IMG/VR virus record: IMGVR_UViG_3300048587_001023
Location: 1 to 55,554 of that record
Reading direction: 5' to 3' (one strand)
Origin: a virus
Length of the DNA stretch: 55,554 nt
The translations under genes were made by a program, and so were the position numbers. Position 1 is the stretch's first letter. Each line of letters begins with the position of its first letter. Below the pieces are notes generated by a model, which was not told where the DNA came from, did not search any database, and saw only the letters and a list, made by a program, of their open reading frames with translations. This document shows positions 1,554 to 32,414 of the stretch, piece after piece.

Positions 1554-2027
1554 TTGAAATGCTGGGTCTGCAAACGACAGGCGCGCGGGTTCGGCCATGC
1601 CGACACCCGCTTCAAGCCGACCGATCCGCGCCACCACCCCTGGGACTGGGTCTTCTGCTCGCGCCGCTGCCAGGACGCCTTTCACGCCCTGTACGGCCGC
1701 TGGAAAACCGCGCGCACCCAGGGAATCCCCATTCCGGAGACCGACATGATCGATGCCACTGAGATCGAGCGCGCGTGCCTGCAGAAGTGCTTGAAAGCCT
1801 TCGGCGCCGCCGCGGACGCGATCGGATTCGATAAGCCACTCGGCGAGTACGCCGAGCCCGAAGCCCTGCAGGTGATCGGCGCCATCGTCACCTGCTTCAC
1901 AAACGCGATGGCGGCTCACCACGAGATGGCGAAGTACCCGCCTGTGCGCGGCATGCCCGAAGTGCGCGACCCACTAACCGACTTCTCCGACCTGGAGGAC
2001 AAGGCGTTCTGGGAGAAGTCGCCATGA
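1554..2027 (+). CDS. DUF6511-like zinc-binding phage protein
   Basis: The 157-residue product begins with CWVC and continues to FCSRRC at about residues 34-39, a CxxC...CxxxC arrangement that probably binds zinc. The rest, including IGFDKPLGEYAEPEAL, matches what I remember of DUF6511 phage proteins, whose role is unknown. Translation apparently starts at a TTG at 1554, because AAGGAGGG at 1543-1550 is placed ideally for it and no ATG fits. The stop overlaps the ATG of the nuclease gene at 2024. A role in DNA recombination or replication is suggested only by its neighbours. Confidence 0.6.
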   Translation: MKCWVCKRQARGFGHADTRFKPTDPRHHPWDWVFCSRRCQDAFHALYGRWKTARTQGIPIPETDMIDATEIERACLQKCLKAFGAAADAIGFDKPLGEYAEPEALQVIGAIVTCFTNAMAAHHEMAKYPPVRGMPEVRDPLTDFSDLEDKAFWEKSP

Positions 2028-6852: not shown

Positions 6853-8241
6853 ATGCTCAACGTCGAGTACCGCAAGGTCGCGGCGCTGATTCCCTATGCG
6901 CGCAACCCGCGCACGCATAGCGAGACGCAGGTGGCCAAGATCGCCGCCAGCATCGTCGAGTACGGCTGGACCAACCCGGTTCTGGTCGACGGCGACAACG
7001 GCGTCATCGCCGGCCACGGCCGACTGGCTGCCGCGCGCAAGCTCGGCTTGGACGAGGTGCCGGTGATTGAACTGGTTCACCTGTCGCCGACGCAGAAGCG
7101 CGCCTATGTGATCTCCGACAATCGGCTGGCGCTCGATGCCGGCTGGGACGAGGAACTGCTCGCGCTGGAGTTGGCCGAGTTGTCTGAAGCCGGCTACGAC
7201 CTGGATCTGACCGGCTTCGATGAGGCTGAGATCGAGGGCTTGCTGACGGACGATGGTGCCGATGCACCGACGGAAGCCGACGAGGCCGACAGCGAGGAAA
7301 TTCCAGAACCGCCGGTAACGCCGGTGTCCCGCCATGGCGATATCTGGGCGTTGGGTGAGCACCGGATCATCTGTGGCGACGCCGCCGATCCGTCGGTGAT
7401 CGCCGCGCTGATGCAGGGTGCGACCGCGCGCCTGTGCATCACCTCACCGCCCTACGGCAACCAGCGCGACTACACCTCCGGCGGCATTGCCGATTGGGAT
7501 GGCCTGATGCGCGGGGTGTTTGCCCAACTGCCGATAGCCGACGACGGCCAGGTCCTGGTCAACCTCGGCCTGATCCACCGCGACAACGAAGTCGTCCCGT
7601 ACTGGAACGCCTGGCTCGAGTGGATGCGCGCGCAGGGCTGGCGCCGGTTCGGCTGGTATGTCTGGGACCAAGGACCGGGCATGCCCGGCGATTGGCAGGG
7701 ACGACTGGCGCCGAGCTTCGAGTTCGTCTTCCACTTTAATCGCCAGAGCCGCAAACCCCACAAGATCGTGCCCTGCAAGCACGCAGGCCTGGAGTCGCAT
7801 CTGCGTGCCGATGGCAGTTCCACTGCGATGCGCGGCAAGGATGGCGAGGTCGGCGGCTGGACCCACCACGGCCAGCCGACGCAGGACACCCGCATTCCCG
7901 ATTCGGTGATCCGGGTGATGCGCCACAAAGGCAAGATCGGTCAGGGCATCGACCATCCCGCAGTATTCCCGGTCGCGCTGCCAGAGTTCGTCATCGAGGC
8001 CTACTCGGACGCAGGCGATCTCGTATTCGAACCCTTCGGCGGCAGCGGCACGACGATGCTGGCCGCGCAGCGTACGGGCCGGGTTTGCCGGTCGGTGGAG
8101 ATTGCGCCGGAGTACGTGGATGTCGCCATCCGGCGCTTCCAGCAGAACTACCCCACTGTCGCGGTCACGCTGCTGGCCAGCGGCAAGACGTTCGAAGCCG
8201 TCGCAGACGAACGGTTGCAGCCTGCGGAGGCCGCGCCATGA
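6853..8241 (+). CDS. ParB-domain/DNA methyltransferase fusion, TSPPY type
   Basis: This 462-residue protein has a ParB-like N-terminal domain (about residues 5-110, with GVIAGHGRLAAARKLGL and SDNRLALDAGWD) and a beta-class DNA methyltransferase domain. Motif IV is TSPPY at 197-201, a form common in N4-cytosine enzymes, and motif I is FGGSGTT at 395-401. It would methylate phage DNA, probably to evade host restriction. The ATG at 6853 is chosen because the ParB fold begins right there; an in-frame extension upstream would run through the terminator. It overlaps the second methyltransferase gene by four bases. Confidence 0.85.
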   Translation: MLNVEYRKVAALIPYARNPRTHSETQVAKIAASIVEYGWTNPVLVDGDNGVIAGHGRLAAARKLGLDEVPVIELVHLSPTQKRAYVISDNRLALDAGWDEELLALELAELSEAGYDLDLTGFDEAEIEGLLTDDGADAPTEADEADSEEIPEPPVTPVSRHGDIWALGEHRIICGDAADPSVIAALMQGATARLCITSPPYGNQRDYTSGGIADWDGLMRGVFAQLPIADDGQVLVNLGLIHRDNEVVPYWNAWLEWMRAQGWRRFGWYVWDQGPGMPGDWQGRLAPSFEFVFHFNRQSRKPHKIVPCKHAGLESHLRADGSSTAMRGKDGEVGGWTHHGQPTQDTRIPDSVIRVMRHKGKIGQGIDHPAVFPVALPEFVIEAYSDAGDLVFEPFGGSGTTMLAAQRTGRVCRSVEIAPEYVDVAIRRFQQNYPTVAVTLLASGKTFEAVADERLQPAEAAP

Positions 8242-18074: not shown

Positions 18075-18101
18075 TTCCCCTCCACACGCAGTCCCCCGCA
18101 A

Positions 18102-18120
18102 CCCGCCGCTCGGCGGGTTT
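18102..18120 (+). terminator. Hairpin with short T-run before the capsid gene
   Basis: CCCGCCG at 18102-18108 pairs with CGGCGGG at 18111-18117 and TTT follows. The next bases, CATTTCTGGAGA, hold the ribosome site for the capsid gene. The same hairpin-plus-leader module recurs at 32375. With only three T residues it may attenuate rather than stop transcription. Confidence 0.5.
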
Positions 18121-18138
18121 CGCATTTCTGGAGATCCC

Positions 18139-19143: not shown

Positions 19144-19427
19144 TGGTCGCGATCACCGACCTCTACGATGCCGCGGCCCGCGCCGGCCTGTTGACTCCGG
19201 TCACGGTCGGCGCGGTCACCGTCGCCTGCAGCTTTCGGGCACCGGATGAATCGGTGCTCGATGGCCTCGCGCTGTCGCGCGATTACGCCATCGAGTACCC
19301 AAGCGCCCGGCTATCGCTGAGCACCGGCGACACCGTCGAGATCCTGGGCCAGACCTATCGGGTGCGCGAGGTGCTGGCGCTGCGCGATGGCAGTGAGTGC
19401 CGGGCCAAGCTCGCGAGGTTGTCATGA
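19143..19427 (+). CDS. Probable head-tail attachment protein
   Basis: The 94-residue protein lies right after the major capsid gene, where lambda-like phages keep gpFII-type head-tail connectors. It is predicted beta-rich in the middle, with YPSARLSLSTGDTVEILGQTYRVREVLALRDGSECRAKLARL resembling the small barrel of such connectors. The ATG at 19143 overlaps the capsid stop. The family is inferred from position and shape rather than a clear motif. Confidence 0.6.
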   Translation: MVAITDLYDAAARAGLLTPVTVGAVTVACSFRAPDESVLDGLALSRDYAIEYPSARLSLSTGDTVEILGQTYRVREVLALRDGSECRAKLARLS

Positions 19428-20060: not shown

Positions 20061-20816
20061 ATGTCCTTCTACGCTTCCTTCCAAGGCCGCGTGTACCTCG
20101 GTAAGCGCGACGCCAACGGCGCGCCGATCGAGGTGCGCTCGCCCGGCAACGTCGCCGACCTCTCGCTGTCGCTCAAATCCGATGTGATCGAGCACTACGA
20201 GAGCCAGTCCGGCCAACGCGCAGTGGATCTGCGTCTGGTCAAACAGAAATCCGCCACGGTGATGCTCACCATCGAGGAGTTCACCAAGGAAAACCTCGCG
20301 CTCGCCCTGTACGGCAACTACGTCACCGGCGCGGGCGGCAGCGTCACCGATGAACCGATCGAAGGCGCGGCGCCCACCCTCGGCGATCGCTACTGCCTGG
20401 CCCACCCCAAGGTGTCGGCACTAACGGTGGTCGATTCGGCCGCCACGCCGGCGACGCTCACGCTCGGCACCCACTACACCGCCGATGTCGACTTCGGTGC
20501 CGTCCAGTTGCTGGACATCACCGGCCTGACGCCGCCGTTCAAGGCGAGCTACACCTTTGGTGCAGTGACCGAGATCGGCATCTTCACCCAGCCACTCCCC
20601 GAGCGTTTCCTGCGGCTGGAGGGCGTGAACACCGCCGCCGGCAACGCCAAGGTGCTGGTCGAGCTGTACCGCGTCGCGTTCGATCCACTGAAGAAGCTCG
20701 ACTTCATCTCCAACGAGCTCAACAAGTTCGAACTCGAAGGCTCGCTGCTCGCGGACTCCACCAAACCCTTCGATGCGACGCTCGGCCAGTTCGGCCGCAT
20801 CGTGCAGATCGGGTGA
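20061..20816 (+). CDS. Major tail tube protein
   Basis: This 251-residue protein is beta-rich throughout, with LSLSLKSDVIEHYESQSGQRAVDLRLVKQKSATVMLTIEEFTKENLALALYG and GIFTQPLPERFLRLEGVNTAAGNAKVLVELYRVAFDPLKKLDFI. These match tail tube proteins of siphoviruses with this gene order. It polymerises to form the tail tube. A strong AAGGAGTGA ribosome site precedes the ATG, fitting a protein made in quantity. The next gene is the tail chaperone, as expected. Confidence 0.75.
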   Translation: MSFYASFQGRVYLGKRDANGAPIEVRSPGNVADLSLSLKSDVIEHYESQSGQRAVDLRLVKQKSATVMLTIEEFTKENLALALYGNYVTGAGGSVTDEPIEGAAPTLGDRYCLAHPKVSALTVVDSAATPATLTLGTHYTADVDFGAVQLLDITGLTPPFKASYTFGAVTEIGIFTQPLPERFLRLEGVNTAAGNAKVLVELYRVAFDPLKKLDFISNELNKFELEGSLLADSTKPFDATLGQFGRIVQIG

Positions 20817-20821
20817 GTGCC

Positions 20822-21244
20822 ATGACCGACACGATGTTTGCGGCGCTGCCGCCGCTGGCCGATTCACTGACCATCGCCGGCGAGACCCTCGAGATCACGC
20901 CGCTGCGCGTGGGCGAACTGCCGTCGTTCGCCCGCGCCGTTCAGCCGATCGCCGGGCGCCTGTCCGTTGATCCCGACTGGTTGCGATTGCTGGCCGACGA
21001 CGGCGATGCCGTACTGCAGGCACTGGCCATCGCCTGCCGACGACCGCTCGCCTGGGTGGCCGGCCTCGCGATCGACGAGGCGATCCGGCTGGCGGAGGCG
21101 GTCTTCGCCGCGAACGCGGATTTTTTTCTGCGCCGGGTGGTGCCGGAGATCAGCCGCGCGAGCGCCGGCCTCCAGCAGCGGATGCCTGGGCTGACGTCAT
21201 TCACCGACTCGTCCGCGCCGGCCACCGCTACCCCGATCTGCTGA
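20822..21244 (+). CDS. Tail assembly chaperone, G protein
   Basis: This 140-residue protein sits between the tail tube and the tape measure, the place of the lambda gpG chaperone. It is helical after a short beta start (LTIAGETLEITPLRVGELPSFARAV) and ends in an unstructured SSAPATATPIC. Codons 100-102 read GAT TTT TTT, which gives a T_TTT_TTT slippery heptamer at 21121-21127. The ATG at 20822 is used; a GTG at 20813 is less likely. It should coat the tape measure during tail assembly. Confidence 0.75.
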   Translation: MTDTMFAALPPLADSLTIAGETLEITPLRVGELPSFARAVQPIAGRLSVDPDWLRLLADDGDAVLQALAIACRRPLAWVAGLAIDEAIRLAEAVFAANADFFLRRVVPEISRASAGLQQRMPGLTSFTDSSAPATATPIC

Positions 21245-21393
21245 CCTACACCCTGGTGCAGGTGCGCTGCTTTCTGGCGGCCAGTGACCGCGCCGAGCGC
21301 GAGGCCCTGGCCGCGCAGTTCGCGCTGCTCGTCACCGCGCAGCGCGGCGGCCGCGCAGAGATCCAATCGCTGTTGAAAGAACTGAGCTCATGA
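20822..21393 (+). CDS. G-T tail chaperone fusion by -1 frameshift at 21121-21127
   Basis: After the T_TTT_TTT heptamer the -1 frame stays open to the TGA at 21391. The shifted segment begins near SAPGGAGDQ and continues DAWADVIHRLVRAGHRYPDLLTYTLVQVRCFLAA...LLKELSS, giving a fusion of about 190 residues. The extension has no good start codon of its own. Its acidic-helical content is typical of the T part of lambda gpGT, which binds tail tube subunits. The frameshift site is canonical for -1 slippage; only experiment can prove the product. Confidence 0.7.
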
Positions 21394-21467
21394 CAAAACG
21401 ACAGGACTGGCGTTTTGCACGCCCGAAGGGCGCCCGTCAGGGTGGCGCACAGGGATGTGCGCCATGA
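21390..21467 (+). repeat. 78-bp triple-hairpin element, copy A
   Basis: This spacer starts at the stop codon of the G-T fusion and runs into the next start codon. It folds into three perfect hairpins: CAAAACG/CGTTTTG (21394-21417), CGCCC-GAA-GGGCG (21420-21432), and GGCGCACA-GGGA-TGTGCGCC (21444-21463). The AGGGA ribosome site lies in the loop of the third hairpin. It is 77/78 identical to copy B at 29525; the only change is in a loop. Confidence 0.85.
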
Positions 21468-22117
21468 AGCTGTCCCTGACCACCGGCGGCCTGCTCGATC
21501 CCAAGCGGCTCGACAGTTGGGTACCGGCCAAGCGCCGGGCCATTCGCAAAGCCGTCGAGGCCGGAATGAAGACGGCGGGCAAGGACATCGCCCTGCTCGC
21601 ACAGGCGCGCATGGGCTCGGCCTTCACGGTGCGCAAGGCGGGCTTCGTGAAGTCGATGCGGCATCGACTCTACGCCGGCAGTCCGGAGCGCTTCCCGGCG
21701 CTGCGAATCGGCTCGCGAATTCCCTGGCTGGGCATCCATCTGCGTGGCGGCAGCATCAGCGGCCGGATGCTGATTCCGCTGCTGCCCGAACACCGCCGGA
21801 TCGGCCGCCGGGCCTTTCGCCGTGTGATCGACGCGCTGATGCGCTCGGGCAATGCCTTCTTCATCGAGCGCAACGGCAAGGTCATCTTGATGGCCGAAAA
21901 CATTCGGGAGAACGCCTCCCAACTCGGCCGCTTCCGGCGTGCCGAGCGCGCGCGCCGCGGTGCGGGCGCGATTCGCCGCGGAGAGGAAATCCCCATCGCC
22001 GTGCTGGTGCCCACCGTGGTGCTGCGCCGCCGCTTCGACCTGTCGGGCCTCGTTCGCTCGCAACTGCCCAAGCTCGCCGACGCCATCGTGAAGCAACTGG
22101 ACGCCCATGGCCTCTGA
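21464..22117 (+). CDS. DUF6441-like minor tail protein
   Basis: The 217-residue protein is strongly basic with long Arg-rich stretches (HRRIGRRAFRRVIDALMRSGNAFFIERNGKVILMAEN). It matches my memory of DUF6441, found just before the tape measure in siphoviruses. It probably helps connect tail tube and terminator. Translation may start at the ATG at 21464, which follows the third hairpin of the 78-bp repeat, or at the in-frame ATG at 21455 inside that hairpin. The end overlaps the tape measure start by eleven bases. Confidence 0.65.
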   Translation: MKLSLTTGGLLDPKRLDSWVPAKRRAIRKAVEAGMKTAGKDIALLAQARMGSAFTVRKAGFVKSMRHRLYAGSPERFPALRIGSRIPWLGIHLRGGSISGRMLIPLLPEHRRIGRRAFRRVIDALMRSGNAFFIERNGKVILMAENIRENASQLGRFRRAERARRGAGAIRRGEEIPIAVLVPTVVLRRRFDLSGLVRSQLPKLADAIVKQLDAHGL

Positions 22118-25067
22118 CCGCGCGCAAATCCTGATCACCGCGGTCGACCAGACGCGGGCGGCGCTCGCCTCGGTGAAGGGCAACCTCGAGGGCCTGTCCG
22201 CGGCGGCGAGCAAAGTCAGTGGCGTGCTGGCGAGCCTGGGCGTTGCACTGTCGGTGGGCGCCCTGGTCGCCGCCGGTCGGGCCGCGCTCAATACCGCAGA
22301 CGATCTCGCCAAGCTCGCGCAGAAGACCGGCCTGTCGGTCGAGTCGCTTTCGCTGCTGAAGCCAATCGCCGAGCAGGCTGGCGTCTCGTTGGAGGGGCTG
22401 GCCAAAGGTATGCAACGGCTCGCAACCTCGATGATCGAGGCTGCGGGCGGATCTCAGGCACAAGCCGAGGTGTTTCGCCGCCTCGGCGTATCAGTCACCG
22501 ACGCGGCGGGCCAGATTCGCCCGACCGAGCAGGTGCTGCTAGACCTGTCCGATGCGTTTGCGTCGATGCCGGACGGTGCCGAAAAATCGGCGCTGGCGGT
22601 GCGCTTGTTCGGCAAGAGCGGCGTCGAGCTGATCCCCTTCCTGAATCAAGGGCGCGCCGGCATCGAGCAGTTGAAGGAGCAGTTCAAGGCGCTCGGCATC
22701 GAGATCAGCGGCGACACCGCACGTGCCGCCGAGAAATTCAACGACACCCTCGACACCGTCAAGCAGGCGCTGCAAGGCATCGCGATGCGCATTGCCGAAG
22801 CGGCGCTGCCAGCGCTGCAGCAGTTGGCCGATGCGCTGGTCGTCGCGGCCAGCCACGGCAGCGAGATCACTACCGTCGTGCGCGTGCTCGGCGAGGTGAT
22901 CTTCGCGGCGCTAGCGGTCAAGGGCGCGACCGCGGTTGCGGCGTTGCTGCAGTCGGTCACCGTGCTCAAGGCCGCCTTCATGCGGTTCTTGCCGGTTCTG
23001 GCGGCGGTCGCGGTGTGGGAAGTCGGCAGCGGCATCGTGCAGGCGATCCAGGACATCCGCGAAACCGATCGCATGCTGGATCAACTCGCGCGCCAGCGCG
23101 AGAACCTGGCGCTGCTCACCCAGGCCATGGACGAGTTGGCCGCGAACGGAGTCGTCAGCGTCAAAACGCAGATGGCGCTGGCCGCGCTGGCCGCCGAGCG
23201 CCTGAAGGAAACGCTGCCCGCCACCGCCGATGCGCTGCGCGGCATCCAGGGCGCCGCCACCCAAGCCGGCGAGGCCATCCGCCAATCCCTCGATGCCGAG
23301 GCCAAGAAGGCCGCCGAAACGGTCAAGCAGTTGGCGACCACCCATCAGAAGGTCGCCAGCGATATCAAGGCGATCTGGGATGCTCGCGTCGCCGCCATCG
23401 AGGCCAACTACAAGCGGCAGGAGGCCGCCGCGCAGAACTCGGCGCGCTCCGAATCGGCTGCGATTCGGGACACCACCCGCGCACTGGTAAACGCCGAGCG
23501 CGACAAATTGACGGCAGTCGAAGCCGGTGCGCGGCAAGCTGAAGCCACCTGGCGCACTACCTATGCGCAAGCCGTGGCCTTGGCCCGCGCGGCCGGTCAG
23601 GACGTGCAGGCGGTCGAGCGGCAGGCGGTCGATGCGCGCATCGCGCTCTACCGGCAGTTGGAATCCGCCTACCGCGCCACGGTCGATCGACTGATCGCCG
23701 AGGAACAACGCCATCTGCAGGCGGCCAAGGCCGCCGATGACGCGCGGCTCAACCTGCGCCTGTCGGTCGAGGATCGCATCCGCGAGCTCTCGCGCCGGGG
23801 CATGGACGAGTACGCGGCCTATCAGGACCGGCTGCGACAGATCGATGAGAAGCAGGCGCAGGCGCGCGATGCCCTCGCCGCCGGCAACTATGAGCAGGCC
23901 CGCAAGCTGGCCGAGGAAGCCATTGCGCTCGCCGAGCGCTCGGCCTCGGCGGTGACCAAACAGGTCGAGCAGAACGGCAAGGCCATCACCCAGACCCTGG
24001 TGTCGGAAGGCCAGGCTGCTGCCACCGCCATTGCGGAGATCAAGGACGCCGCCGGCATCGCCGATGCCGCCCTCGATGGCCTGGGCGATGCCCACCGCCG
24101 CGCGGCCTCGGCGGCGGGCGACGGCGCCGATCAAGCCAAACGCGCGCTGGCCTCGGTCACCTCCGAACTCGGCAAGCTGCGCGAGCAATTGCTGGCGCAG
24201 GACACGCTCAAGCTCGAGGTCGATCTCGATGCCGCGCGCGACGGTATCGCCCGGATCAAAGCGCTGACCGAGGCCGAAACCCTGATCGCGCAGATCCAGA
24301 TCGATACCCGTGAGGCGCGGGCCTCGCTGGAGAAACTGCAGGCGGATGTCGACAACCTGTCCTTGCTCGCCACCGTCGAGGTCGACAGTCGCCAGGTGCT
24401 CGACGATATCGACCGGCTCAAGCGCACGCTGACCGACGTCGGTGTCGACATCCCTGCGCTGGTGTCGTTCGATCAACCGCGGCAGGCGCTGGCGGCCTTC
24501 GCGACGGACGCCAAGATCGTGCTCACGGCGCCGACCGAGGCTACCCATACGCCCAACCCCGATCTGTCGCGCTACCGCGCGGCCGTATCGGAACTCTCGC
24601 GCCCGACCAGCAGCACCCACACGATCTACGTCAGTCGAGTGCAGACCAACGCGCAGGGCGGCTTGATTCAGCGCTTGGCCGAAGGGGGTCAGGCGGTGAC
24701 GGGTGCCTTCCGGCGCGTGGCCGGTCGCGTGCTGGGTCCGGGCACGGAGACGTCGGATTCGGTGCCCGCGCTGCTGTCCCACGGCGAGTTCGTGATTCGC
24801 GCCGCCAGCGTGCGCCGGTTCGGCGAAGGGTTCTTCGCCGCGCTCAATGCAGGCTTGCTGCCTGCACTTCCGCGCTTTGCTGTGGGTGGCGCGGCCGCAA
24901 CCACGCTGCGGAGTGTGATCGGCCACGCCGACACCGGATCGGCCTCGGCGCGCGAAGTGGTGGATCTGCGTTTCCATGTGGGCGGCAAGACGCACGCGGT
25001 GCAGTCCTCACGCGAGACGGCGATGCATCTGGCTCAGGCACTGCGCGAACTGTCGCGGGGCGCGTGA
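22107..25067 (+). CDS. Tail tape measure protein
   Basis: This is the longest phage gene here, 986 residues, as expected for a tape measure. It has long coiled-coil stretches (residues about 310-700), a hydrophobic region near 255-315 that could insert in the host membrane (VIFAALAVKGATAVAALL, FLPVLAAVAVWEVGSGIVQAI), and the C-terminal HGEFVIRAASVRRFGEGFFAALNAG found in many tape measures. It sets tail length and is ejected with the DNA. At about 1.5 angstrom per residue it would imply a tail near 150 nm. The end overlaps the next gene. Confidence 0.9.
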   Translation: MASDRAQILITAVDQTRAALASVKGNLEGLSAAASKVSGVLASLGVALSVGALVAAGRAALNTADDLAKLAQKTGLSVESLSLLKPIAEQAGVSLEGLAKGMQRLATSMIEAAGGSQAQAEVFRRLGVSVTDAAGQIRPTEQVLLDLSDAFASMPDGAEKSALAVRLFGKSGVELIPFLNQGRAGIEQLKEQFKALGIEISGDTARAAEKFNDTLDTVKQALQGIAMRIAEAALPALQQLADALVVAASHGSEITTVVRVLGEVIFAALAVKGATAVAALLQSVTVLKAAFMRFLPVLAAVAVWEVGSGIVQAIQDIRETDRMLDQLARQRENLALLTQAMDELAANGVVSVKTQMALAALAAERLKETLPATADALRGIQGAATQAGEAIRQSLDAEAKKAAETVKQLATTHQKVASDIKAIWDARVAAIEANYKRQEAAAQNSARSESAAIRDTTRALVNAERDKLTAVEAGARQAEATWRTTYAQAVALARAAGQDVQAVERQAVDARIALYRQLESAYRATVDRLIAEEQRHLQAAKAADDARLNLRLSVEDRIRELSRRGMDEYAAYQDRLRQIDEKQAQARDALAAGNYEQARKLAEEAIALAERSASAVTKQVEQNGKAITQTLVSEGQAAATAIAEIKDAAGIADAALDGLGDAHRRAASAAGDGADQAKRALASVTSELGKLREQLLAQDTLKLEVDLDAARDGIARIKALTEAETLIAQIQIDTREARASLEKLQADVDNLSLLATVEVDSRQVLDDIDRLKRTLTDVGVDIPALVSFDQPRQALAAFATDAKIVLTAPTEATHTPNPDLSRYRAAVSELSRPTSSTHTIYVSRVQTNAQGGLIQRLAEGGQAVTGAFRRVAGRVLGPGTETSDSVPALLSHGEFVIRAASVRRFGEGFFAALNAGLLPALPRFAVGGAAATTLRSVIGHADTGSASAREVVDLRFHVGGKTHAVQSSRETAMHLAQALRELSRGA

Positions 25068-27235
25068 TGACCAAGCAGTCTGCAACCGTCGTCCGCGTCC
25101 ACGAATGTCCCTGGCCGGCATTCGAGACCACCATCGACCCGTGCGACCGCGATCTGTACGACTGGATCGAAAGCGTGCCCTCGGTGCTGCGCACCGTGTC
25201 GATGAACGTCGAGTTCCAACGCATCACGATGGTGACCTCGCAGAAGCAGTACGAGGCGTGGTCGCGCTGCGAGGCCAGTCGCTACGAAACGCCTTCGGCA
25301 CCGGCAGCGGGCTTGCGCATCGCCATCGCCAGCCAAGTCGCCGGCAGCACGGCGAGCACCGACCAGGAAGAATCCCCGGAGACCGTGTCGGCGCGCCTGT
25401 CGCTGTCCTTCACGCCAAGCACGGTGACGCCCCACACCTGCCCGCCGATCGCCTATCCCGTGCTGCATCGCGTGGCGCAGGTCGGCATCAATTCCTACCT
25501 GCAAAACACCCAAGTCGAGTTCACCACCGCGCCCAGCACGATTTGGGACGGTATCGGTCCCTGGGAAGGCAGCAAGGTGTTCATGTGTTGGACGCGCACG
25601 AACTGGTCGCTGCGCAGCCTGCAGCACTTCTTTCGTGGCCAGCTGCGGATCCGCAATCCCAAGGTGTTTGATCATTGGGTGCAGTTCGCTGCGTTCGACG
25701 CGCCGCCAGCGCCACAGAGCCTGGTCGTCCGCGGCCAGCCCTACAACGCCAGCGCGCTGCAGGTGCTGACCATTGGACCGGTCAGCGGCCAAGGCTGGCG
25801 AGTGATCACCGAGTACTGCAATCAGGACACCGGCGAGACCCTGCTGGTGGACCGCTGGCTGACCGGTGGCCTGTGGTCCGAGGTGGGATTGGGCGGCTAT
25901 GGGACCGAGCATTCGTTCTTCGACACCCTCCCGAGCAACGCGCCCACCGCCACCGACGGCACCTGGCTGCACCGCGTCTGCGTCTACGCCTTCCAGCGGC
26001 CATCGACGGCCTTCAGCGTGCGCTACGACGGCATCGAACTGGTCGCGGGGCATTCGGCAATCACGCCCTCGATCACCACCGAATACCAACCCGGCGTCAG
26101 CACCGGCATTGCCTCCGTCGATGACTCGGTCGATATCCGCACGGTCGGCGCGAACAAGGCTGCTTTCCGCATCTTGGGCATTGAACCGGTGCCGGGCTTC
26201 GGGGTCCGCTTCACCGTGCAACTGATCAACGAGTTGCACTTCGATGCCTGCATCGTCAGCCCGTTCCTGTCCGGCATCGGCGATCGCAGCTCGTGGCAGA
26301 CCAATACCGGCATGCACTTTGAGATGCCGCCGGTGTGGGTGGTGCGAAACCTGCCCGCGAACTCGGCCAGCGAGCCGATTGGCGTGCTGGTGCCGATGCG
26401 CATCCTCGAAACCGGTGATTGGCCACTGCGTGATTTGCATTGGCGGCTGGCCATCACCCAGCAGGCCTACCCGGCCCCGCTCAATCATTTTGCCGATGGC
26501 GTGTATGGCGGCGGCAGCAATGCGCTCTACCCAAACATCGGCAGTTGGCCACCACCGGGCTATCGGATCAGCAGCAATCCCGAGCAGGTCGCCTTTCTGC
26601 TCGCCGGTTACCTGGAGAACGGTGATGTGGTGTGGAACAGCGCCTGGGATGGCTCGGCCGATACCCAGCGCGTACTGGTCACGGTGCCCGTGCGCCGCGC
26701 TCCCGGCGCCGAAGTGATCGCCATGCGCGATCCGCAGTTCTCTAGCACTGCGGTGTCGTACTTCGAACAGAAGCCGTTTCGCGCCTACATCGAGTGGACC
26801 GCGGAGAAGCGCATTTCCAGCAACCCGGAAGTCTGGGAGCCGCGCACCGGTCGCGTGGCGCTGGGTCTGGACCTGCAACCGGCACTGACCCGCTACGGAC
26901 GCACGCTGACGGTGCCGGTCGCGGCCGGCCGTCCGATGTGGTCGCCCTACTACGGCAAATGGATCACCGTGTTCGAGTCCTGGCCCGGAGGCGATGTCGA
27001 GGAGTTGGAGGTCCATCTCGTCGATACCTATTTGCGACCGAACTATCCGGCGAGCCAGGGCTGGCGGAACTTTCAGTACACCTCGCTCAAGAAGCCCTAC
27101 CTCACCGCCAACGTGGCGTGGTGGTTCGCGAGCACGCCCTTCCAGGACCAGCCCGGCTACCTGCACGCGCTCACCCTGATCAAAGAAGCCCCCAACGCCG
27201 ACACCGTCGACGTGGCGCTCGTCGGCTACTGGTAG
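25067..27235 (+). CDS. Large tail tip protein of unknown function
   Basis: The 722-residue protein follows the tape measure, where siphoviruses encode distal tail components. It is rich in Trp, Tyr and beta-strand patterns, with no transmembrane segments and no clear catalytic motif. Pieces such as GWRVITEYCNQDTGETLLVDRWLTGGLWSEVG and IGSWPPPGYRISSNPEQVAFLLAGYLENG look like stacked beta domains. The ATG at 25067 overlaps the tape measure stop; a GTG at 25064 would add one residue. A role in the tail tip or in adsorption is inferred from position. Confidence 0.6.
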   Translation: MTKQSATVVRVHECPWPAFETTIDPCDRDLYDWIESVPSVLRTVSMNVEFQRITMVTSQKQYEAWSRCEASRYETPSAPAAGLRIAIASQVAGSTASTDQEESPETVSARLSLSFTPSTVTPHTCPPIAYPVLHRVAQVGINSYLQNTQVEFTTAPSTIWDGIGPWEGSKVFMCWTRTNWSLRSLQHFFRGQLRIRNPKVFDHWVQFAAFDAPPAPQSLVVRGQPYNASALQVLTIGPVSGQGWRVITEYCNQDTGETLLVDRWLTGGLWSEVGLGGYGTEHSFFDTLPSNAPTATDGTWLHRVCVYAFQRPSTAFSVRYDGIELVAGHSAITPSITTEYQPGVSTGIASVDDSVDIRTVGANKAAFRILGIEPVPGFGVRFTVQLINELHFDACIVSPFLSGIGDRSSWQTNTGMHFEMPPVWVVRNLPANSASEPIGVLVPMRILETGDWPLRDLHWRLAITQQAYPAPLNHFADGVYGGGSNALYPNIGSWPPPGYRISSNPEQVAFLLAGYLENGDVVWNSAWDGSADTQRVLVTVPVRRAPGAEVIAMRDPQFSSTAVSYFEQKPFRAYIEWTAEKRISSNPEVWEPRTGRVALGLDLQPALTRYGRTLTVPVAAGRPMWSPYYGKWITVFESWPGGDVEELEVHLVDTYLRPNYPASQGWRNFQYTSLKKPYLTANVAWWFASTPFQDQPGYLHALTLIKEAPNADTVDVALVGYW

Positions 27236-27246
27236 GACCACCGCCA

Positions 27247-27627
27247 ATGATTGTTCTGGACGGCATTGCCTTGCCGATGGGCCTGCTGTGGTCCGATGAA
27301 TTTGCCGCGGGGTCGGTCGCGCAAACCATGCGTCGCACGCTCGATGGCTCGCTGGTCGTGTTCTACAGCGCGCTGCATGCCGGTCTGCCGATCACGCTCG
27401 AATCGCAGGCCGATGCCGGCTGGTTGCAACGCCATCAGGTCGAAGCCCTGGCGCTGCGCGCAGCCAGTCCCGGCGGCGTCTATCCGCTGACCCTGCGTGG
27501 CCAGACCCGCGCCGTGATGTTCCGCCACCACGACGCACCCGCCTTCGAGGCCAAGCCGCTGGTTGCGCTCGCCACGCCGCAGGCCGGCGACTACTACCTC
27601 GCCACGCTCAAGCTCATGACCGTCTGA
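27247..27627 (+). CDS. Small tail tip protein of unknown function
   Basis: This 126-residue protein is mainly beta-strand: IVLDGIALPMGLLWSDEF, GSLVVFYSALHAGLPITLES and VYPLTLRGQTRAVMFRHHDAPAFEAKPLV. The shape is like a distal tail subunit of one domain, but no family is recognised. It lies 11 bases after the large tip gene and 45 bases before the next gene. Its place in the tail operon supports a virion role. Confidence 0.55.
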   Translation: MIVLDGIALPMGLLWSDEFAAGSVAQTMRRTLDGSLVVFYSALHAGLPITLESQADAGWLQRHQVEALALRAASPGGVYPLTLRGQTRAVMFRHHDAPAFEAKPLVALATPQAGDYYLATLKLMTV

Positions 27628-27672
27628 GCAGGCGGCTTCATTCAACACCCGCAGTACCGAAGGACTTCGCTC

Positions 27673-28683
27673 ATGCCCATTCTCGACAATGAAATCGTCT
27701 GGCGCCCCTCGGCGCTGGTCTCCGACAGCACGCCCGCGCAAAACGGTGGCCGCATGGCCAGCGCGTTGCTGATCTCCGGCGTCAAAAACAACCTGTTCCC
27801 CGACGTTTCTCAAGCCGAGCGGCTCGCCGGCTCGGTGAAGTGGCGCAAGGCCTTCGTGCACGTAAACAGCGTTCAGGACACGGCCCTGCTCAATGTGCGG
27901 CTGTTCCTGGATGCGCTGACGCCCGCGGGCGATTTCGTGCTGTTCCAGCCGGGCACCCAGACCGACACCGAGAACCAGATCAGCGGTCGGGTCTATGGCG
28001 TCGGTACGCTGTTCTCGCCGATCACCGCGGGCAGCAGCCAGTTTCAGGTCGCCTGCGAGAACCCCAGCGAGTACGCCACCTTGCAGCCATTTCGCGTCGG
28101 CGATGTGTTGCGCGTGGCGGACCGGCCAAGTGTTGGCGGCGCCGGCAACGAAGACTGGGTGACGGTCACATCAATCACATACGGCGCCGACTACGCCACC
28201 GTCGATGTGGCCTCCCCGCTGGCCAACAGCTACGGCACTGCGAACACCGTCGTCTCCAGCGTGTTGGAAGTCGCCAGCGTTGCCGGCACCGTCAGCAGCG
28301 TGGTGGTGACCAGCGTCGGCGGCAGCTTCAATTCCGCGACGGTCGGCAATTTGGTCGCACACAACAAAGGCGCGGTGGCCGAGAGCTGGACACTGACCTT
28401 TACCGGCGCCACCAGTTACACCGTCAGCGGTACCAGCGTCGGCGCGCTGCCGAGCAGCGGCTCCACCAGCGCCGATTACGCGCCCATCAACCCGAGCACT
28501 GGCACGCCCTATTTCACGATCAAGGCGCTCGGCTGGGGCGGTAACTTCCAGACCGGCAACACCATGACGTTCACCACCACGCCCGCCGCGATCCCGGTCT
28601 GGTATCGACGCCAGGTGCCGGCCGGCACCTTCAGCCTGGCCAACGACTATGCATCGCTCGCCATCCATGGGGAGAGCGCCTGA
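27673..28683 (+). CDS. Tail protein with immunoglobulin-like composition
   Basis: The 336-residue protein has a conserved-looking N-terminus (LDNEIVWRPSALVSDSTPAQNGGRMASALLISGVKNNLFPDVSQAERLAGSVKWRKAFVHV). A Ser/Thr/Val-rich region follows (about 190-290) with SSVLEVASVAGTVSSVVVTSVGGSFNSATVG, typical of beta-sandwich repeats in phage surface proteins. GAAGGA about ten bases before the ATG at 27673 serves as ribosome site. It may form part of the baseplate or a side fibre. Confidence 0.55.
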   Translation: MPILDNEIVWRPSALVSDSTPAQNGGRMASALLISGVKNNLFPDVSQAERLAGSVKWRKAFVHVNSVQDTALLNVRLFLDALTPAGDFVLFQPGTQTDTENQISGRVYGVGTLFSPITAGSSQFQVACENPSEYATLQPFRVGDVLRVADRPSVGGAGNEDWVTVTSITYGADYATVDVASPLANSYGTANTVVSSVLEVASVAGTVSSVVVTSVGGSFNSATVGNLVAHNKGAVAESWTLTFTGATSYTVSGTSVGALPSSGSTSADYAPINPSTGTPYFTIKALGWGGNFQTGNTMTFTTTPAAIPVWYRRQVPAGTFSLANDYASLAIHGESA

Positions 28684-29528
28684 TGGCGCGCGTCGGCTTC
28701 AAGAACGCCTATGCGGCCGCGGCGTTCGACAAGCCCGCGGTGGCTGCCTTGTTCGACAGCATCAAGACCACGCTGATCGATGCCGGCTTTCAGGTCGTGC
28801 TCAACACGCCGAACGCCATCGACGTGGTGCCGATCGGGACCAATGCCGCGGTGCCGAATGACGACTCGCAGCACTGGGCCATCGCCTTCGAAGACCTTGG
28901 CGCGAACGGACAGATTCTCGCCAGCGCCGTGTTCGGCGCGAACTACCTCGACCCGGGCGCGCTGGTGAATACCCTCGCCGTGGTCAGTACCGAATGGCTC
29001 GATAGCCCGAGCCCGGCGCTGACCGTCTGGTTCGCCGCCGACGGCGCGGCCGGCTGGTGGTGGCTGCATGCCGCTATCGCAGACAGCAACAGCAGCACGG
29101 GCGTGGACACGCGCTTCGCCTGCGCTGGCGTCAGCACGCGGCGTTATCCCGCCGACCACTACCAAGGCCTCAGCACGCGCTACGGTCTGTGGGACCCGTG
29201 GGGCGATTTCTATCCGGCCTATGCCCGCCAGACCGACGGCGGTGTCGACTCCGGCGCCTGGACCGGCACCTGGTCGCTCTTCGGGGAAGGCTGGAGCTAC
29301 AACGCTCGGCGCCATCCCGGCTCACCGCTGCCCAAGATGGCGGTGCCGCAGTTCCCGAACCGCGATGGCAACGCTGCCTGCCTGTACGGCGAGTTCAACG
29401 AGATCCTGATTCTCACCGATGGCTATGCGCAGGAGGAAACAGTCCTGCCCGGCTGGGTGGCCATGATCGGCAGTGACAACGACCAACCCTTTGCGGTGCC
29501 GGCACCGCCGAGCTTCGCGCTGCTATGA
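28683..29528 (+). CDS. Tail protein of unknown function
   Basis: This 281-residue protein overlaps the previous stop (TGATG) and ends at the TGA that opens the second 78-bp hairpin repeat. It is rich in Trp, Asn and Asp (AGWWWLHAAIADSNSSTG, LWDPWGDFYPAYARQTDGGVDSGAWTGTWSLFGEGWSYNARR), suggesting a carbohydrate-facing or particle-surface protein. The N-terminal third (AAFDKPAVAALFDSIKTTLIDAGFQVVL) is helical. No family is recognised. Confidence 0.55.
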   Translation: MARVGFKNAYAAAAFDKPAVAALFDSIKTTLIDAGFQVVLNTPNAIDVVPIGTNAAVPNDDSQHWAIAFEDLGANGQILASAVFGANYLDPGALVNTLAVVSTEWLDSPSPALTVWFAADGAAGWWWLHAAIADSNSSTGVDTRFACAGVSTRRYPADHYQGLSTRYGLWDPWGDFYPAYARQTDGGVDSGAWTGTWSLFGEGWSYNARRHPGSPLPKMAVPQFPNRDGNAACLYGEFNEILILTDGYAQEETVLPGWVAMIGSDNDQPFAVPAPPSFALL

Positions 29529-29602
29529 CAAAACGACAGGACTGGCGTTTTGCACGCCCGCAGGGCGCCCGTCAGGGTGGCGCACAGGGATGTGCGCCAT
29601 GA
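29525..29602 (+). repeat. 78-bp triple-hairpin element, copy B
   Basis: This copy repeats the three hairpins of copy A at 21390 with one change, A to C, in the triloop of the second hairpin (CGCCC-GCA-GGGCG). Again the element starts at the stop codon of the preceding gene and ends at the start codon of the next. The ribosome site is again in the third loop. Confidence 0.85.
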
Positions 29603-31314
29603 CCATCGGTCATGCGCTCGCCCTGGAATTCGGGGCGGGCCTGCACATTGCCTCCGGCCGGCCGCGCCTCAAACGACAGTTCGTGGCCGCCTGGGGCAAG
29701 ACCGAAGTGTTCCTCGCTCAGGCGACCTGCTGGGATCTCACCCGTCAGCGCGCCTGGCAGCACCGCAGCGAGTGGGCCCTTCGCATGGCGCAACAGTTCC
29801 GCGGAATCTACGGCCTGCGCGTGGAGCGTGGCCTGCAGCATCCCTACGGCGAGTTGCGTCGGCATCGGCATCGGTGGATGGCGATCTATGGCGATCTGGC
29901 GGTGAGGTCCACTCGCTTCGCCGTGGCCTACGGCGATCAGATCACCGTCCGAATCAGCAATCACTTCGCAATCGTCTACAGCGGCCGCCGTGACGTGCGG
30001 GCGCAGCACCGCGCCGACTACGCGGCGGTCGCGTCGAGCACGATCCGCACCCGACTGACGCTTGCTTACGGCGCCACCACGCCGATCCGCGTCCAGCAAC
30101 GCGTCCCGTGGGGACTTTTGGCCGGCTGCAAGCAATCCGTGCGCATGCCCTATTGGCTCAGCACGCGCGTGGCCGCGCGCCAGGTCAGCGCCTACGCGAT
30201 CACCGACACCAATCCGGTGACGGGTGAGCTCGCCACCTCGTGGTCCTTGCTGGAAGACGCCCGCCTGCAGGCAGTGATGAATACGCCCGAGCTGACCTGG
30301 CGCGAGCGTCGCGTACCGATCATCGAAGCCACGCTGTCCTGCGATGAAGGCAGCCCGGTCTGGATGGCCAGCGTCGAGCTCGCGAGCACGGAGGATTTCG
30401 CCGCCATCGCTATTGGCGATCGCATCCGCCTCGTGCTCGGGCTGGAAGTCTTCGAGTTGATGGTGGATGGCAAAACCCTGTCGCGCAGTTCGCCGACCGA
30501 GCAACGCGCCGAGATCACGGCGCTATCGCCGCTGACGCTGCTGGATGCGCCGTTTGCGAGCACGTTGCGCTACTACGCCGCGGAACCTGTCTCTGCTCGC
30601 GGCGCGGTGACCGATTTGATCGGCACGGTCGATTGGCAGATGCCGGATTGGATCATCCCGGCCGGCCGCTTGCTGCTGGAAGGCACGACGCCGCTGGCGG
30701 CAGCACGCAGCATCGTGGCGGCCATCGGCGGCATCGTCGAGAGCCAGCCAGATGGCTCGGTGGTCTGCCGGCGCCGGCATCCGGTGAGCATTCCCGACTA
30801 TTTATGGGCCGGCGTCGCACACGCGCTGTTCGATGCCGATGTGCTGTCGGCGCAGGCGCAGATCTCGCCGTTGCGTGGCTTCAACCGGGTGACCGTGGCC
30901 AACGAGGACGGCGCCGGCGTATCCACGGGCGATCAACTCGAGTACGTGCCCGACGAAGACAGCAGCACGCTCGGCACGGTGCGCGCTTACCTGGGCATCG
31001 ATCGGCCGGTCGTGCTGGCGCATACCGGCCATCCGGCCACCGTTGTGACCAGCCTGAGCGCAGTCGTGCGCCGGGAGACGGAAGTCGTCGAGTTCATCGA
31101 AGGTCGCGCACGCACGCGCTATCCAGTGACCACCATCGAATCGCTGGACTGGCAGCACGCCGGGCTCGGCGATGTCACCTACGCAGGCACCCGCCTCGAT
31201 GCCGCGACCGCGGGCTACAGCCTGCTCCGCATCACCTACACCACCACCTCGTTGAACTGGCGCGTGGGCCTGTCGGCCGACGAAGACGTCCAGTTCGTGC
31301 TCGTCGATTCGTGA
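29599..31314 (+). CDS. Tail hub/baseplate-like protein with N-terminal strand repeats
   Basis: The 571-residue protein has an N-terminal zone (about residues 45-190) of short repeating units of 14-16 residues with the pattern rFAvaYGd..tVRis, for example RFAVAYGDQITVRISN and RLTLAYGATTPIRVQQ. The C-terminal half (WRERRVPIIEATLSCDEGSPVWMASVELAS onward) resembles phage hub proteins of the gp27/late control D kind. The ATG at 29599 follows the third hairpin of the repeat; an in-frame ATG at 29590 is also possible. It probably crowns the tail tip. Confidence 0.6.
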   Translation: MTIGHALALEFGAGLHIASGRPRLKRQFVAAWGKTEVFLAQATCWDLTRQRAWQHRSEWALRMAQQFRGIYGLRVERGLQHPYGELRRHRHRWMAIYGDLAVRSTRFAVAYGDQITVRISNHFAIVYSGRRDVRAQHRADYAAVASSTIRTRLTLAYGATTPIRVQQRVPWGLLAGCKQSVRMPYWLSTRVAARQVSAYAITDTNPVTGELATSWSLLEDARLQAVMNTPELTWRERRVPIIEATLSCDEGSPVWMASVELASTEDFAAIAIGDRIRLVLGLEVFELMVDGKTLSRSSPTEQRAEITALSPLTLLDAPFASTLRYYAAEPVSARGAVTDLIGTVDWQMPDWIIPAGRLLLEGTTPLAAARSIVAAIGGIVESQPDGSVVCRRRHPVSIPDYLWAGVAHALFDADVLSAQAQISPLRGFNRVTVANEDGAGVSTGDQLEYVPDEDSSTLGTVRAYLGIDRPVVLAHTGHPATVVTSLSAVVRRETEVVEFIEGRARTRYPVTTIESLDWQHAGLGDVTYAGTRLDAATAGYSLLRITYTTTSLNWRVGLSADEDVQFVLVDS

Positions 31315-32344: not shown

Positions 32345-32374
32345 CCCGCAGCCCCCATCCCCGCGCTACCACCA

Positions 32375-32396
32375 CCCGCCCGCGAGGCGGGTTTTT
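32375..32396 (+). terminator. Terminator-like hairpin before the lysis genes
   Basis: CCCGCC at 32375-32380 pairs with GGCGGG at 32386-32391 around CGCGA, followed by TTTTT. The bases after it, CATTTCTGGAGA, are the same as those after the hairpin before the capsid gene. It could reduce lysis gene expression relative to tail genes. Confidence 0.6.
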
Positions 32397-32414
32397 CATT
32401 TCTGGAGACCGCCC

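Follow-up and report, generated by a model that had tools for sequence, protein, structure and literature searches.

We found that a 78-base hairpin repeat, present twice in a phage genome, is an insertion that sits on gene start codons and has the same core as the E. coli repeats that encode the small RNAs RrA, RrB and RrF. The reading we favour, with a probability of about 0.7, is that of a mobile but non-autonomous element with homology to the RrA/RrB/RrF core, which inserted 3′ of RTGA start codons and through which CsrA probably exerts repression. In the proposed mechanism, the element would insert directly 3′ of the RTGA at the start codon of a gene and bring its own ATGA at its right end. 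The old start codon, with its Shine-Dalgarno sequence or its coupling to the previous gene, would then drive a mini-ORF of 24-25 codons that runs across all hairpins and stops at the ATGA, where the ribosome would be handed to the new ATG. As a replacement, the element would supply the ribosome site AGGGA in the loop of hairpin 3 along with the new start. Host CsrA/RsmA probably binds loops 1 and 3, because the hairpin 3 loop has the exact consensus form and hairpin 1 has a GGA loop; this would block the ribosome site, and repression would be lifted when ribosomes arrive from upstream. If this is true, a mobile element has adapted to start codons while keeping the reading frame and the ribosome supply, and host CsrA has a route by which it can be wired to individual phage structural genes. 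In the open-access papers searched, neither the phage form nor its mobility or placement at start codons had been described.

The two copies and their fold

Within the window, the whole 55,554-nt stretch of DNA that was analysed, copy 1 is located at 21390..21467 and copy 2 at 29525..29602, both on the plus strand and separated by 8135 bases. They are 78 bases long and identical at 77 of these, with A at 21426 against C at 29561 in the triloop of hairpin 2 as the sole mismatch; coordinates, length, identity and the position of the difference were all exact in the first-pass annotation. Copy 1 lies 5′ of a DUF6441 tail-region gene (21464-22117, also phrog_6367), which adjoins the tape measure gene, and copy 2 lies 5′ of a tail-protein-like gene (29599-31314); protein genes flank both copies. 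The spacer had been described as running exactly from stop codon to start codon. The junction was correct, but each copy includes both codons, since there is an ATGA at either end: the first contains the TGA stop of the upstream frame, and the downstream gene starts within the last. Each copy is also a mini-ORF of 25 codons plus stop (21390..21467 and 29525..29602, plus strand), which is read from the first ATG over exactly 26 codons including the stop and translates as MTKRQDWRFARP[K/Q]GARQGGAQGCAP*. In copy 1, its ATG overlaps the upstream stop and its TGA overlaps the downstream start, both as ATGA. This in-frame mini-ORF and the CsrA consensus described below were absent from the first-pass annotation.

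The frame upstream of copy 1 (20971-21393) lacks an ATG start and is in −1 register to the gene for the tail assembly chaperone (20813-21244), which fits a −1 frameshift of the G/GT type of tail chaperone. The 20971-21393 frame has homologues in relatives. The window also holds a second repeat pair at 18099-18134 and 32373-32408, 81% identical over 36 bases, which consists of a terminator-like GC hairpin followed by TTTCTGGAGA and is located 5′ of a gene. The stretch around its 32373-32408 repeat can be aligned with L031 and L095 as well.

Copy 1 folds into hairpin 1 (21394..21417) with the loop CAGGAYTG, in which the GGA is inside the loop, hairpin 2 (21420..21432) with a GNA triloop, a small hairpin 2b (CCC/GGG, 21433..21442) and hairpin 3 (21444..21463), which is flush to the ATG and has the ribosome site in its loop. 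Hairpin 3 of copy 2 (29579..29598, like the others on the plus strand) has the same Rsm/CsrA-type loop. Three perfect hairpins had been claimed for each copy. However, the stem of hairpin 1 contains one A.G mismatch, hairpin 2b is a fourth, and in the minimum-energy fold of copy 2 hairpins 1 and 2 are merged into another stem. Hairpin 3 is the same in both copies, and the AGGGA ribosome site was seen in its loop in both, as had been proposed. For both copies, the RNA folded better than sequences obtained from it by dinucleotide shuffling (z −3.5 and −3.9).

Covariation was scored on an alignment of 22 distinct copies, three of which come from bacterial genome contigs and have an identical layout. 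On the named four-helix structure, 90.8% of cells were paired, and 14 of the 24 pairs had changed on both sides, giving 55 double-change cells; none of 500 shuffles reached such values, and slid versions of the structure dropped to 33-44% paired. In hairpin 3, the stem occurs as GGCGC/GCGCC, GCCGC/GCGGC, GGCGU/ACGCC and GGCAU/AUGCC around a ten-base centre, ACAGGGANGU, that is invariant save for N in all 22 phage copies.

Insertion at start codons

About 20 distinct phage sites were recovered when viral contigs were scanned with patterns for either half of the element, left or right. Elements are 74-78 bases long, and in every aligned copy the element is on the coding strand directly 5′ of a start codon, with the final hairpin flush to the ATG. 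The left motif is ATGA in 18 of the 22 copies, GTGA in three and altered in one; the right end is ATGA in all 22. The upstream TGA is inside the left RTGA in 16 copies. In the other six, the left RTG is a start codon, in most cases preceded by a Shine-Dalgarno-like stretch (judged by eye).

Next to these filled sites stand empty ones. The DUF6441 protein has 79 viral relatives, and in all 77 with a readable start the element is missing and the upstream frame ends directly at the bare start codon, most often as ATGA. Furthermore, the phage DNA is homologous to a Mizugakiibacter prophage and related contigs in which two other junctions, sites C and D, are filled with the element. In the studied phage, site C (8238..8241, plus strand) is an ATGA stop/start overlap that is filled in L004, L011 and L050, and site D (19424..19427, plus strand) is an ATGA overlap that is filled in L005, L048 and L009. 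A further site, E (1554..1557, plus strand), is a TTGA start codon in the studied phage and is filled in L100, L103 and L097; it is also empty in L004. The studied phage, filled at sites A and B and empty at C, D and E, is thus reciprocal with its relatives. For site C, the filled form of L011, GCCGC-ATGA-[74]-ACTGGCTGGCC, has an exact empty form in L100, GCGGC-ATGA-ACTGGCTGGCC. A search of viral contigs with the 29599-31314 protein gave no relatives, hence no empty counterpart for copy 2 was found.

These results show that the element is an insertion. They also indicate recent movement rather than shared descent of the junction, because copy 2 is identical at 78 of 78 positions to the copy of L004/L011 at a non-homologous site, whereas the homologous DNA of the studied phage and L004/L011 is only 71-81% identical (genes about 78%). 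A Methylocaldum genome has, at another site, a copy that differs from copy 1 at two positions. A mobile repeat inserted between stop and start codons had been among the first suggestions; the empty sites bear out the insertion, but the start codon RTGA is a more apt description of its target than a stop/start gap, because the upstream stop is outside the RTGA in those six copies. Loss of the sequence in related phages, or changes breaking the stems, had been named as arguments against the element. The stems are kept by compensatory change, and the element is absent at the DUF6441 site in relatives, which is what mobile insertion predicts.

The CsrA-type loop and the E. coli relatives

For Rsm/CsrA, the consensus reads A/UCANGGANGU/A (PMC6849547), and for E. 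coli CsrA it reads RUACARGGAUGU (PMC6692469). In copy 1, ACAGGGATGT at 21449..21458 (plus strand) matches the former, and only its second N varies in the 22 phage copies, every one of which has the consensus in a hairpin loop and carries ACAGGGANGT. Among a wider set of 92 copies, almost wholly chromosomal and mostly serving no start codon, the hairpin 3 loop has CANGGANG in 71 and CAGGANG in six more (77/92); hairpin 3 lay outside the pattern that found these loci, but the aligning model was built on phage copies. The AGGGA in this loop doubles as the downstream ribosome site, so that part of the loop invariance in phages needs no CsrA. A second GGA loop, that of hairpin 1, is located about 45 bases upstream. 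The hosts tested have csrA, and no phage-encoded CsrA was found in the studied phage or in 11 other element-bearing virus records. The phage copies would be under the control of CsrA/RsmA, and the first suggestion of a translational control element is plausible through the Rsm/CsrA-type loop on the ribosome site. CsrA/RsmA-repressed leaders such as that of cfcR in P. putida likewise have the CANGGANG motif at the translation start (PMC6849547). Unlike in those leaders, the motif in phages is brought by an inserted repeat and coupled to a mini-ORF, and the CsrA site is a predicted one.

The first-pass annotation had suggested similar strings in other gammaproteobacterial genomes, and this was borne out. 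A scan of species genomes with hairpin 1 gave 78 loci, nearly all gammaproteobacterial, and, by way of the literature on tRNA-linked repeats, the search led on to those at E. coli rrnA, rrnB and rrnD. With a covariance model, carrier genomes were found to have up to 61 (Microbulbifer), 31 (Methylocaldum) and 19 (Brenneria) copies, and in an even draw of 143 genomes from one class, 31 had a copy at E 1e-8 or better. Of the two bases 5′ of the element, in 80 chromosomal hairpin-1 copies, the first is G in 71 and the second is A in 75, and 26 of these 80 copies follow TTCGA, as found in the T arm at a tRNA's tail. In L017 (4711-4975), L207 (289-514) and L070 (7616-7759), copies of the chromosomal form are arrayed in tandem, where the right end (ATAA or GTGA) abuts the start of the next copy.

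The covariance model, built from phage-type copies only, matched the tRNA-linked repeats of E. coli rrnA, rrnB and rrnD at 46.5 bits each (E 3e-13) and at full length, positions 1-80 of 80. These repeats lie between the terminators T1 and T2 and are reported to make the CsrA-binding sRNAs RrA, RrB and RrF (PMC8144298). RrB binds CsrA with an apparent KD of about 100 nM, and changes to three GGA motifs, among them the two in loops, abolish this binding; the other 19 repeats were rated as unlikely to bind CsrA (PMC8144298). Although the existence of tRNA-linked repeats was recognised in 1978, there is no accepted account of their origin, and they had no accepted function before RrA, RrB and RrF were linked to CsrA in 2021 (PMC8144298). 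At rrnB, the element lies between AGTAGGA and ACTGCCAGGCAT, and the 5S tail reads AGTAGGGA-ACTGCCAGGCAT; from its sequence, it looks as if the element had inserted after the GA of a duplicated 5S tail, comparable to RTGA in phages. The phage element is related over its full length to the rrnB T1-T2 interval (L244, 300-440). The rrnB T1-T2 spacer is carried by many laboratory vectors, and the phage element offers a possible origin for it.

The phage copies resemble RrA, RrB and RrF in the order of the hairpins, the GGA-type loops 1 and 3, the left flank ending in GA and the right end CATAA/CATGA. They differ in that the E. coli copies are embedded in a 5S tail duplication and function as sRNAs, whereas those of phages are on start codons, contain an in-frame mini-ORF and serve as ribosome site. 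There is no tRNA in the 55,554-nt stretch, and the phage copies lack the feature by which tRNA-linked repeats are defined, a duplicated tRNA/5S tail. By this feature they are not members of that group, but judged by their sequence they belong with RrA, RrB and RrF by homology of the core. This link is, to our knowledge, new, and since the core is now seen in phages as an insertion with empty sites, its origin and mobility become testable. Some chromosomal relatives follow tRNA genes with a spacing of 170-181 bases, from which identity with the likewise tRNA-linked RtT RNA of the tyrT repeats (Rfam RF00391) was suspected. This was rejected, as the phage-built model had no match at E. coli tyrT, where Rfam finds four RtT copies. 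Searches of Rfam with the element, at the gathering score and with E up to 10, gave no family, and two weak matches were at chance level.

A broader version of the favoured reading, which we put forward only tentatively, is that the RrA/RrB/RrF class is the fossil of an active transposable hairpin. It would move as single-stranded DNA into phage RTGA start codons and into chromosomal GA sites in duplicated tRNA/5S tails, put single phage genes under host CsrA and remain neutral to translation through its in-frame mini-ORF.

Movement, reading frame and alternative explanations

The hairpins close to the ends, the short motif 5′ of the insertion point and the lack of a true target duplication resemble the chemistry of IS200/IS605-type elements, but no Y1 transposase is linked: none of the 20 Y1_Tnp loci in carrier genomes has the element within about 1 kb. 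A transposition enzyme is presumed to move the element, but none was found. A MITE of a DDE transposon does not fit, as the ends are not mutual inverted repeats and a left GTGA is combined with a right ATGA in three copies. REP/REPIN repeats have a GTAG or CGTC tag adjoining the hairpin and are moved by RAYT transposases (PMC3733652). They are similarly short, palindromic and interspersed, with hypothesised movement as hairpin DNA (PMC3733652), but the element has three to four hairpins and GGA loops, and lacks both the tag (chromosomal left flank NNGA) and the Y1 linkage, so this class was rejected.

The strongest alternative, to which we give clearly less credence than to the favoured reading, is purely selfish hairpin DNA, mobilised by a single-strand enzyme of the IS200/IS605-like or another kind. 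Its loops would be read as DNA, CsrA would have no role, and start codons would be only those places where insertion is harmless. Merely 1.2-1.5% of stem pairs are G.U, which hints that the hairpin is selected or repaired as DNA, either in addition to the RNA or in its place. Insertion 3′ of a short motif, seen in chromosomes as the GA preference, also suits selfish DNA, as does a frame that is retained while the peptide is not conserved. So do the ends, which are not a simple target duplication because the left can be GTGA while the right is always ATGA. On the other hand, the loop agrees with the Rsm/CsrA consensus and is free to vary at N positions alone, the E. coli relative binds CsrA (PMC8144298), and no transposase linkage was seen. 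We keep to the mobile element with probable CsrA repression.

It is unlikely that the element is primarily a boundary sequence for modular exchange, at which homologous recombination between copies swaps the flanking genes. In L003/L012 and L092, the downstream gene is common, the upstream DNA differs and the join is at the element, so that recombination between copies is possible there. However, at sites A, C and D the flanks of filled and empty forms are homologous on both sides and only the element is gained. Modular exchange may be a side effect.

The frame from RTG to TGA is kept in 21 of the 22 phage copies and in 13 of 40 chromosomal ones (Fisher 8e-7), with the length class set by the model boundaries and a p value that is too strong, as the phage copies share descent and it overstates their independence. 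The frame was lost in one lineage (L014/L058, second copy). Lengths compensate: L099 and L100 have 75-base forms, and in L097 and L103 the extra length of the hairpin-2 loop is balanced by a shortened loop in 2b. Frame retention would also be expected if the 25-residue peptide were a functional product, but we consider this very doubtful. The residues over the stems change freely as the stems covary (TKRQDWRF, TILQDCKS, TNYQDRQF, TNGQDGTF, TNVNGTNL), and the conserved ones sit where the loops dictate the codons; peptide conservation was rejected as an explanation. The mini-ORF likely serves to give ribosomes a path across the hairpins to the ATGA, and not to yield a product.

An immobile control element inherited with its gene junctions, although it would suit the constant coding-strand position directly 5′ of start codons in phages and the conserved stems and ribosome loop, has next to no probability left, being already contradicted by the 77 empty relatives, the reciprocal filled and empty sites and the occurrence of identical copies in divergent phages at positions that are not homologous.

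The element had no match in collections of phage and plasmid records. AcaML1 alone was retrieved with the flank of another copy, through the downstream gene, and has a different spacer at that junction. This spacer (L104, 2939-2994, at the homologue of site E) is likewise structured and has ATGA at both ends (ATGAAAACGAGCGAAGCGAAGTTTCGCGAAGCC...GCAATGA); it is perhaps another repeat family with the same start-codon target.
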